Below, one piece after another: positions 9,787 through 11,650 of a stretch of 64,000 bases of DNA (positions within the stretch are counted from its first letter, which is position 1; the number at the start of each line of letters is the position of its first letter). This DNA is from Bradyrhizobium diazoefficiens (lineage in GTDB: Bacteria > Pseudomonadota > Alphaproteobacteria > Rhizobiales > Xanthobacteraceae). The stretch spans positions 4,306,501 to 4,370,500 of the forward strand of contig NZ_CP067102.1 in assembly GCF_016616885.1 (NCBI RefSeq), given 5' to 3'. The translations under genes and the position numbers were made by a program. The notes beneath the pieces were generated by a model. That model was not told where the DNA came from. It searched no databases and saw nothing but the letters and a program-made list of their open reading frames with translations.

Positions 9787-10812
9787 TTACGCCATCACCC
9801 GCTGCGGCAACAGCTCGGCGATCTGCACCGCGTTCAGCGCGGCGCCCTTGAGCAGCTGATCGGCCGCCACGAACATCGAGATCGAATGCCCCGAGGGATC
9901 GCTGAGATCCTTGCGGATGCGGCCGACCAGGACGTCGTCCTGGCCCGAGGCGTCGATCGGCATCGGAAAGTAGTTCTTCACGCGATCGTCGACGACCTTC
10001 ACGCCGGGCGCCTGCGCCATGATGGCGCGGACCTGGTTCTCGGTGATCTCCTTCTCGCATTCGAAGGTGATGGCCTCGCAATGCGCGCGCAGCACCGGCA
10101 CGCGGACGCAGGTCACGCCAATGGCGATCTTGTCGTCCTCGAAGATCTTGTGCGTTTCCTTGATGACCTTGGTCTCTTCGTCGTTGTAGCCGGTCTCGGG
10201 ATCGACGGCCGTGTTGTGGTTGAAGAGATTGAAGGCGTACGGGTGCGGCATCACCCTGGGCGTATAGACCTGCCCGTTGAGATTGGCGCGGGTGGACTCG
10301 ACGAGCTCGTCCATTGCGGCGGTGCCGGCGCCGGAGGCTGCCTGATAGGTCGAGATGATGACGCGCTTGATGCGGTTCTTCTGATGGATCGGCCACAGCG
10401 GCACCAGTGCGGTGATCGCGGCGCAGTTCGGGTTGGCGATGATGCCCTTGTGGTCGCGGATGCGGTTGCCGTTGACCTCGGGGATCACCAGCGGAACGTT
10501 CGGGTCCATGCGGAAGGCGGAGGAGTTGTCGACGACGACGGCGCCGGCCTTGACCGCGATCGGCGCGAACTTCTTCGAGATGCCGCTGCCGGCAGAGAAC
10601 AGCGCGATGTCGACGCCCTCGAAGGCGCGCTCGGTCAGCTCCTCGATGACGACGTCCTGACCGCGGAACGAGACCGTCTTCCCGGCGGAGCCGGCGCTGG
10701 CGAGCGCCTTGAGCTTACTGATGCGAAAGCCGCGCTTGTCCATGGTGGCGATGAATTCGGCGCCCACCGCACCGGTGACGCCGACAATCGCGACGACGGG
10801 ATCGTTACTCAC
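9787..10812 (-). CDS. asd: aspartate-semialdehyde dehydrogenase
   Basis: Reduces aspartyl-4-phosphate to aspartate semialdehyde with NADPH, the branch point to lysine/diaminopimelate, methionine and threonine. GTG at 10810-10812 is chosen because GGAGGA sits 5 bases before it; an ATG at 10822-10824 that overlaps this SD would add four residues. The protein is about 341 residues. Motifs: the GVTGAVG nucleotide-binding loop near the N-terminus, VDNSSAFR, the active-site cysteine in NPNCAAI, and SGAGTAAMDEL. A threonine-codon-rich leader and a terminator precede it, which points to attenuation. Confidence 0.96.
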   Translation of the reverse strand: MSNDPVVAIVGVTGAVGAEFIATMDKRGFRISKLKALASAGSAGKTVSFRGQDVVIEELTERAFEGVDIALFSAGSGISKKFAPIAVKAGAVVVDNSSAFRMDPNVPLVIPEVNGNRIRDHKGIIANPNCAAITALVPLWPIHQKNRIKRVIISTYQAASGAGTAAMDELVESTRANLNGQVYTPRVMPHPYAFNLFNHNTAVDPETGYNDEETKVIKETHKIFEDDKIAIGVTCVRVPVLRAHCEAITFECEKEITENQVRAIMAQAPGVKVVDDRVKNYFPMPIDASGQDDVLVGRIRKDLSDPSGHSISMFVAADQLLKGAALNAVQIAELLPQRVMA

Positions 10813-10842
10813 TGTGTCCTCCATTGAGATCGATTTAGACAA

Positions 10843-10876
10843 CAAAAAAGCCCCGGACCATCATGGGCGGGGCTTC
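10843..10876 (-). terminator. attenuator terminator before asd
   Basis: Read on the minus strand, CGAAGCCCCG and CGGGGCTT pair around an 11-base loop and are followed by TTTTTT. It lies between the leader peptide stop and the asd start, so transcription of asd must pass it. The leader segment CTTCGGGGC (10927-10935) can pair with the first arm and so act as a competing antiterminator. Confidence 0.75.
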
Positions 10877-10904
10877 GGTAGAGCTGATGCGTTTCAGTCG
10901 ACGA

Positions 10905-10976
10905 CTACGCGCGCACGCCTCCCCGGGCCCCGAAGGCCGTGGTGGTTTTGGTCGTGCGTTTGGTGGTCGTGAACAT
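10905..10976 (-). CDS. threonine-rich leader peptide of asd
   Basis: A 23-codon frame begins MFTTTKRTTKTTT and ends at TAG. Eight of residues 3-13 are threonine (ACC and ACG codons). Such clusters are the hallmark of transcription attenuation: ribosome stalling on scarce Thr-tRNA favours an antiterminator. It is followed after about 30 bases by an intrinsic terminator and then asd. No strong Shine-Dalgarno is seen, which is the main weakness. Too short for standard gene calling. Confidence 0.75.
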   Translation of the reverse strand: MFTTTKRTTKTTTAFGARGGVRA

Positions 10977-11041
10977 GGCGGCGACTTATGCGGGAGAGTC
11001 TTGCGCCCGTCAATGGCTTTTGGGCGGGATTGTGGCCCGCA

Positions 11042-11650
11042 CTACTTGCCCCGTACGCCCGGCGGCTCGAGGAGGACCTCCTTGAGGTCGTCGCCGCTGA
11101 TGACGACGATCGCGAAATTGAGCCGGCCGCGGTCGCGCACCAGACCGCCGCTGATGGCCTTGCCCGACGCCGCCTGCTCGGCGACGCGCACCGCATCTGC
11201 CAGGCGATGCCTGATGGTGCCGAGTGCTGCGAGATTGCTGCGATCCTCGTGGTCTAGTTCGGCCAGAGGGAGGGCAGCTTCGCCGCCCATGAGCTCGCCG
11301 GTCGCCGCGTTGATGGTGTGGCGCCAGATCCGGTCGTTGTGCAGGGTTTTCACCCGGTACACCGGTACGCCCGAGCCGCCGTCGAAGCTGATATCCGCGG
11401 TCGTGGCGCCGGCATGACGGGCTTCCGCAATCGCCATGGCCTGGCTGATCGAGATCGACGAGCCGCGGAAGCGTTCGATCTCGCGGCTGACGGCCTGGCG
11501 GTCCGCCGCGGCGTCCCCATCTGTCTCGCTGTGGAGGGTAGTGGGTGTGCCGTCCGCCGAGACGATCGCTCGGGCCGGCGCTGCGACGAGCAGCCCCAAC
11601 GACAGGGCAATCGCCAGCAAGCCGTACATCCCTGGTCTCGATGCGCTCAT
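11042..11650 (-). CDS. secreted PepSY-domain protein
   Basis: It has 202 residues from the ATG at 11648-11650. Signal peptide MYGLLAIALSLGLLVAAPARA. One PepSY unit spans about residues 65-115 (ISQAMAIAEARH ... VPVYRVKTLHND ... INAATGELMGG) and a second, weaker unit lies at about 130-200 (LADAVRVAEQAA ... NFAIVVISGDDLKEVLLEP). PepSY domains are thought to inhibit proteases or bind envelope partners. A 19-bp palindrome lies about 220 bases upstream, suggesting control by the TetR protein encoded next door. A much longer in-frame reading upstream lacks coding character and was not used. Confidence 0.8.
   Translation of the reverse strand: MSASRPGMYGLLAIALSLGLLVAAPARAIVSADGTPTTLHSETDGDAAADRQAVSREIERFRGSSISISQAMAIAEARHAGATTADISFDGGSGVPVYRVKTLHNDRIWRHTINAATGELMGGEAALPLAELDHEDRSNLAALGTIRHRLADAVRVAEQAASGKAISGGLVRDRGRLNFAIVVISGDDLKEVLLEPPGVRGK

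Follow-up and report, generated by a model that had tools for sequence, protein, structure and literature searches.

The threonine (Thr) leader of enterobacteria, with isoleucine and not lysine (Lys) as its second residue, serves the thrABC operon; RNA control by Lys is usually ascribed to riboswitches. Here we describe a leader rich in Thr and Lys codons before asd, a gene for aspartate-semialdehyde dehydrogenase (Asd), on the minus strand of a 64,000-nucleotide stretch of the Bradyrhizobium diazoefficiens genome (NZ_CP067102.1, positions 4,306,501 to 4,370,500; hereafter the window), a genome that forms one 8.085-Mb contig. The arrangement resembles the enterobacterial one in its runs of Thr codons and its predicted choice between terminator and antiterminator. 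It differs in the gene (asd instead of thrABC) and in the accompanying residue (Lys instead of isoleucine), and the best Rfam match over the element was asX2 on the plus strand (22.9 of 70 bits), with no match to a threonine-leader family.

Two further related systems have been described in the same order. The trpL attenuators of Sinorhizobium meliloti and Bradyrhizobium japonicum combine a leader-peptide RNA that starts with the ATG and transcription attenuation, as is predicted for the window's leader, but use Trp codons, control trpE(G) and encode peptides unlike the window's leader, as far as the accessible text of their description goes (PMC7298713). SEP5 of S. meliloti is a possible leader peptide with a Thr/Lys cluster in the 5' untranslated region of asd, as in the window; the accessible text presents it as conserved only in Sinorhizobium and gives no RNA model (PMC10117765), whereas the window's leader precedes a second asd and is followed by a terminator with a U6 tract. 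The Thr/Lys cluster upstream of asd that marks a SEP5-type leader was found in the window and in other loci. In the open-access PMC literature, as accessible in part, no Thr/Lys attenuator of asd was found beyond the SEP5 remark; Vitreschak et al. 2004 (FEMS Microbiol Lett), where an earlier prediction would most probably stand, lies outside that scope. We consider it likely that the second asd is preceded, throughout the genus, by a ribosome-mediated transcription attenuator like the classical leader-peptide ones.

The leader before the second asd of Bradyrhizobium

On the minus strand, the elements are arranged in the order TTGACG-17-CATAAG, 8 nucleotides (nt), leader ATG, leader stop, 28 nt, terminator, GGAGGA and asd GTG, with 31 bases between the T-run and asd:

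10985 to 11013, minus strand: promoter-like site, TTGACG (11013-11008), 17 nt and CATAAG (10990-10985), 8 nt before the leader ATG (sequence, alignment)
10905 to 10976, minus strand: leader peptide MFTTTKRTTKTTTAFGARGGVRA, with eight Thr and two Lys codons, the latter both AAA (sequence, translation of the open reading frame, comparison of related loci)
10912 to 10931, minus strand: predicted antiterminator 5' half, GGGGC (10931-10927), CGGGGAG (10925-10919) and GUGCG (10916-10912), within codons 16-22 (folds, pair counts)
10869 to 10891, minus strand: predicted antiterminator 3' half, CGCAU (10891-10887), CUCU (10883-10880), CCG (10878-10876) and GCCCC (10873-10869) (folds, pair counts)
10844 to 10876, minus strand: intrinsic terminator with T6 at 10849-10844; its stem (10876-10868/10855-10847) encloses a small hairpin (sequence, folds, pattern match in relatives)
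9787 to 10812, minus strand: asd, the second Asd gene of the genome, GTG start, GGAGGA at 10822-10817 (TIGR01296, alignment with a solved Asd)

As in leader-peptide attenuators, asd is preceded by a short frame in which codons for a pathway end product abound; of its 23 codons, Thr occupies residues 3, 4, 5, 8, 9, 11, 12 and 13. The preliminary description of this stretch had recorded such a frame with eight Thr codons within residues 3-13, ending about 30 bases before a terminator followed by TTTTTT, and an asd with its own GGAGGA and GTG. All of these were recovered: the frame exactly at 10905-10976, a distance of 28 bases from its stop codon to the terminator stem, a stem of nine pairs with T6, and the GGAGGA and GTG (10812) of asd. 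DNA similarity revealed no further copies of the leader in the window's genome, and the codon pattern Thr-Thr-Lys-Thr-Thr was not enriched genome-wide (five sites versus seven for the reversed control).

The assignment of the downstream gene to the Asd family was confirmed: its product scored 402.8 bits against TIGR01296 (cut-off 324.2), and residues 7-333 aligned with the solved Asd 2yv3, including the NPNC and RAH motifs, which we take to hold the catalytic Cys and His. It is, by sequence comparison, a second and nearly genus-specific Asd and not the canonical copy of the order, to which it is 45% identical (G000:C1:499095-500084). All nine Bradyrhizobium genomes in the order-wide sample have two Asds that are 44-45% identical, the other one being the type found across the order. 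Of the family's 296 genomes, 28 had the window-type asd at E ≤ 1e-120; 27 of these belong to the genus and the remaining one to a second genus. A relative with 62% identity, also with a Thr/Lys leader, occurs in one genome of another family (G087, locus L092). No such leader was seen before the canonical asd of the two Bradyrhizobium genomes checked (G000 and G035).

Conservation was assessed in 108 loci, comprising the window, its 80 closest loci and 27 further loci of the same asd, some of which may be from the same strains as the closest ones. Among the 94 extracted sequences 84 were distinct (ten were identical to another). The closest loci were titled Bradyrhizobium (78), Bradyrhizobiaceae bacterium (one) and Frankia sp. 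RB7 (one); the last record (L004), with a Bradyrhizobium-type asd at 97% identity and a leader, is probably mislabelled or contaminated. The preliminary description would have been refuted by a leader that relatives do not share; the leader was intact in 107 of the 108 loci. The closest loci had the Thr-rich frame in 80/80 cases and, by a simple pattern, the terminator in 79/80, and in the lone miss (L081) a single changed stem base still permits a G-U pair; among the further loci, 26/27 had an intact leader and 27/27 the terminator. A stricter script recovered 101 of the 108 leaders, 96 of which had 23 residues and the rest 22, 24 or 27. Together, the window and the closest loci include 78 leaders with 23 codons, and K6, K10, T11, A17, G19, G20 and V21 were invariant in all of them. 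Leaders from more distant loci differ in their residues but retain the theme; examples are MTTSTKATAKTKAPSGGSGAVRA in L090 and MITTTQRATTKTPFRAEESARV in L131, the latter from a genome of another genus.

The promoter-like CATAAG, with the spacer of 17 nt and 8 nt to the ATG, was found in 45 of 48 aligned loci. Because CATAAG ends 8 bases before the ATG and no Shine-Dalgarno sequence was seen upstream of the leader ATG in the window, we predict that the transcript starts at the ATG or within a few nt of it and that the leader is leaderless. There are precedents: S. meliloti trpL RNA begins with its ATG according to the accessible text (PMC7298713), and 192 start sites were mapped exactly on a start codon in B. 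japonicum, in a study whose main text does not contain the word asd (PMC4842269).

Some loci deviate in their surroundings. Bradyrhizobium sp. CSA207 has two copies of this asd (L037 and L078), both with leader and terminator, and the -35 region of L078 is altered. In L058 and L065, a repeat of the CATGATCCGGAAAAGTGG type, palindrome-like and about 50 bases long, lies between the T-run and the Shine-Dalgarno site, with leader and terminator unaltered, and in L127 a different palindrome-like repeat is inserted between the terminator and the asd start.

Terminator and predicted antiterminator

In the proposed mechanism, RNA polymerase would begin almost at the leader ATG, with a ribosome trailing on the 23-codon leader. 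When Thr-transfer RNA (tRNA) or Lys-tRNA is scarce, the ribosome would stall at a Thr or Lys codon (3-11), GGGGC.CGGGGAG..GUGCG could pair with CGCAU..CUCU.CCG..GCCCC, the first terminator arm would be removed and polymerase would enter asd. With both tRNAs charged, the ribosome would near the stop codon and cover the 5' RNA of the antiterminator, so that the terminator GAAGCCCCG/CGGGGCUUU would form and transcription would end. As Thr and Lys (and Met) derive from the product of Asd, supply would follow demand.

The arms GAAGCCCCG/CGGGGCUUU form nine pairs, the outermost being G-U. An intrinsic terminator between leader and gene, as expected of an attenuator, is therefore present, and it is conserved; a simple terminator scan did not list it, presumably because its loop is longer than the scan permits. 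The antiterminator 3' half overlaps the first terminator arm. The preliminary description had proposed that the segment CTTCGGGGC pairs with this arm: its position (10935-10927) was right and its GGGGC can pair with GCCCC, but CTTC is unused, and the predicted antiterminator continues downstream of GGGGC with CGG/CCG, GGAG/CUCU and GUGCG/CGCAU. The invariant codons GGA GGC GTG, which are unrelated to Thr, sit in the antiterminator. When 48 distinct loci are aligned, pairing is preserved in 91.5% of 988 cells for the antiterminator, compared to 34-48% when slid, and in 93.8% of cells for the terminator (20-70% when slid).

The RNA ahead of the ribosome was folded with the ribosome placed codon by codon, under assumed limits of its footprint. 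For the window, the computed probability that the antiterminator captures the first terminator arm was 1.00 whenever the A site was at codon 3, 5, 6, 8, 9, 10 or 11; it was 0.59 at codon 12, 0.67 at 13, 0.47 at 16, 0.34 at 18, 0.08 at 20 and 0.37 at 23, so the step falls at the end of the Thr/Lys cluster. In L021, L090 and L129, capture was 1.00 at codon 11, 0.40-0.60 at codon 12 and 0.12-0.19 at codon 20, and in L131 it fell from 0.77 to 0.12 after codon 11 and then stayed near 0.45. Dinucleotide shuffling of the window's antiterminator region gave at least 0.95 at codon 11 together with at most 0.2 at codon 20 in only five of 500 cases. The folds thus support the earlier proposal that a ribosome stalled on Thr codons would favour readthrough.

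Several results weigh against attenuation. Release in the folds is not smooth, as the window values at codons 13 and 23 indicate, and capture rebounds in relatives (0.90 in L090 and 0.87 in L129 at codon 13, 0.88 in L021 at codon 14); in this model the early captured state is firm and the release less tidy. Without a ribosome, capture varies among the five loci (0.33, 0.80, 0.33, 1.00 and 0.46). The antiterminator energy is ordinary, with equally stable folds in 63/500 shuffles, and the fold of the entire leader does not exceed shuffled sequences in stability (z 0.04, 97/200 as good). The covarying stems that the preliminary description had looked for did not appear: the antiterminator score was reached by 102/500 shuffles, the terminator scored below its shuffles (93.8% of cells paired versus a shuffled mean of 95.7), and one pair had changes on both sides. 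Covariation was therefore dropped as proof of either stem; it is not demonstrable because most stem pairs hardly vary. The closest loci are near relatives (asd 91-97% identical), so conservation alone is weak evidence. Within the main clade (36 distinct sequences), 6/20 distinct changes in codons 2-13 were synonymous, versus 30/108 expected, which is about chance, and selection on the peptide is thus not shown there. One leader, L086 (G253), is frameshifted by one base in a G-run, either as a natural variant or through a sequencing error.

Leaders before the canonical asd of the order

For each of 60 canonical asd genes from the order, 400 bases of upstream DNA were scanned for stop-free windows of 12 residues with at least five Thr in any forward frame. 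Such a cluster was found in 36/60 regions, from 11 of the 16 sampled families. Although selected for Thr only, all 36 windows contained Lys, which accounted for 76 of the 210 residues other than Thr, a 9.6-fold enrichment over background (3.0-fold for Met, which ranked next); the loci are not all independent, as a single genus contributes several of them and some leaders hardly differ from one another. When the frames were scored for residue pairs, Thr plus Lys reached 8 of 12 in 28/60 regions, versus a shuffle mean of 2.9, and no other pair exceeded 12/60. At a looser level of 6 the count was 38/60, from which L099, lying in an upstream coding region, should be discounted.

Outside the genus, the window's own family had a canonical-asd leader in two of 28 loci (L265 and L275; L276 is doubtful), and outside the order a leader was found in four of 48 loci of the class (L201, L206, L239 and L240). 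The leader looks like a trait mainly of the order that is absent from some families, and it may have been lost and replaced among them. An nhmmer search over 280 loci found no homology between the Bradyrhizobium attenuator and the canonical-asd leaders (best E 6.6); outside Bradyrhizobium-type loci, only the asd of G087 (L092) matched weakly at the right place (E 0.036). No Thr leader was found at homoserine dehydrogenase in 20 loci (at most three Thr in 12 residues), where starts were set mechanically and about five (L180, L181, L184, L187 and L192) say little because their start codons look wrong.

The RNA behind many of these leaders may be different. Between leader and asd, 25 of 37 canonical-asd leaders lack a T-run (four T, or five in six). 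A CUCUCCC-like strand can pair either with an adjacent GGGGAGA or with a GGGAGAG shortly before the asd start. The canonical leaders, once aligned (A2), had too many gaps for pairs to be counted, so a helix search was used, with only moderately convincing results: a mutually exclusive pair above threshold was found in 12/27 loci with a leader (7% of shuffles), 0/19 loci of the order without one (1% of shuffles) and 4/26 loci of other orders (5%). These counts are suggestive only of another RNA switch, which could be translation control or a different terminator. The twelve loci that combine a Thr/Lys leader with the two-partner pyrimidine-rich strand are L093, L098, L102, L140, L142, L143, L144, L145, L146, L149, L153 and L170. 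No Rfam family reached its gathering score in 20 canonical-asd upstream loci, which included nine of those twelve.

Amino acids probably sensed and alternative readings

The preliminary description had asd tuned by charged tRNA-Thr. Sensing of Thr fits our results, but tRNA-Lys is probably read as well: K6 and K10 are invariant, and Lys is enriched before canonical asd. Since Lys, with its codon AAA, is as constant as Thr, the leader probably senses the products of both branches fed by Asd; that Lys is a true input to the attenuator we regard as rather likely. The ratio of AAA to AAG was 206:19 in the 101 Bradyrhizobium leaders, versus 0:19 in the window's asd gene. Within the Thr/Lys windows upstream of canonical asd, Lys codons were AAA in 74/94 cases, and in seven loci the leaders used AAA for 11/13 Lys, whereas their asd genes did so for 14/155. 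This choice fits a Lys-tRNA sensor, although low RNA structure could also favour AAA. A response to Thr only, in which the same attenuator carries Lys codons by inheritance or because their A-rich sequence leaves the leader RNA free of structure, would agree with the 8:2 excess of Thr over Lys in the window; we think it unlikely, as seven of the eight Thr positions are more variable than K6 and K10 and no residue is enriched comparably to the Lys found in every Thr-rich window before canonical asd, even with several of these from one genus.

Other readings dispense with the attenuator or add to it. The terminator might merely end transcription of an upstream frame, with asd using its own nearby start and the small frame being incidental. 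A frame of 363 amino acids on the same strand does end 65 bases before the leader ATG; yet the leader has a promoter-like site of its own, 96 of the 101 parsed leaders keep 23 residues and frames with Thr and Lys codons are also seen upstream of canonical asd in other families, which leaves this account very little room. It is improbable, if less so, that the short terminated RNA or the leader peptide has a further function in trans, as is reported for rnTrpL and peTrpL in Sinorhizobium in the accessible text (PMC7298713): the predicted leaderless short RNA and the invariance of codons 19-21 outside the Thr/Lys cluster would suit such a role, but these codons lie in the antiterminator, which already explains their invariance. 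A riboswitch or known RNA family was rejected, with no match above threshold; Rfam at E ≤ 10 returned three unrelated families in 10400-11600, all far below gathering score and none of them a riboswitch.

If leader-peptide attenuation with Thr and Lys read together is correct, it would be a two-input attenuator at a branch-point enzyme, in which codon choice (AAA versus AAG) can be tested as the setter of sensitivity, and it hints at what the second Bradyrhizobium asd may be for. The one-genus remark on SEP5 becomes a pattern in 11 of the 16 families sampled. We give even credence to a wider proposal: across much of the order, asd would share one logic, in which a leader peptide reads charged tRNA-Thr and tRNA-Lys (rare codon AAA), and so both Asd branches. 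The input codons would persist while the RNA output is replaced, with a U-tract terminator on the second Bradyrhizobium asd and, in other families, a pyrimidine-rich CUCUCCC strand that would pair either in an adjacent hairpin or with a segment close to the start of asd, probably as translation control. This may be a case where the sensed codons stay while the RNA switch behind them changes.

Apart from the two asd genes, two further neighbouring Semialdhyde_dh domain matches were observed in the same genome (G000:C1:4638367-4639972); at a guess, these are perhaps argC and a relative.
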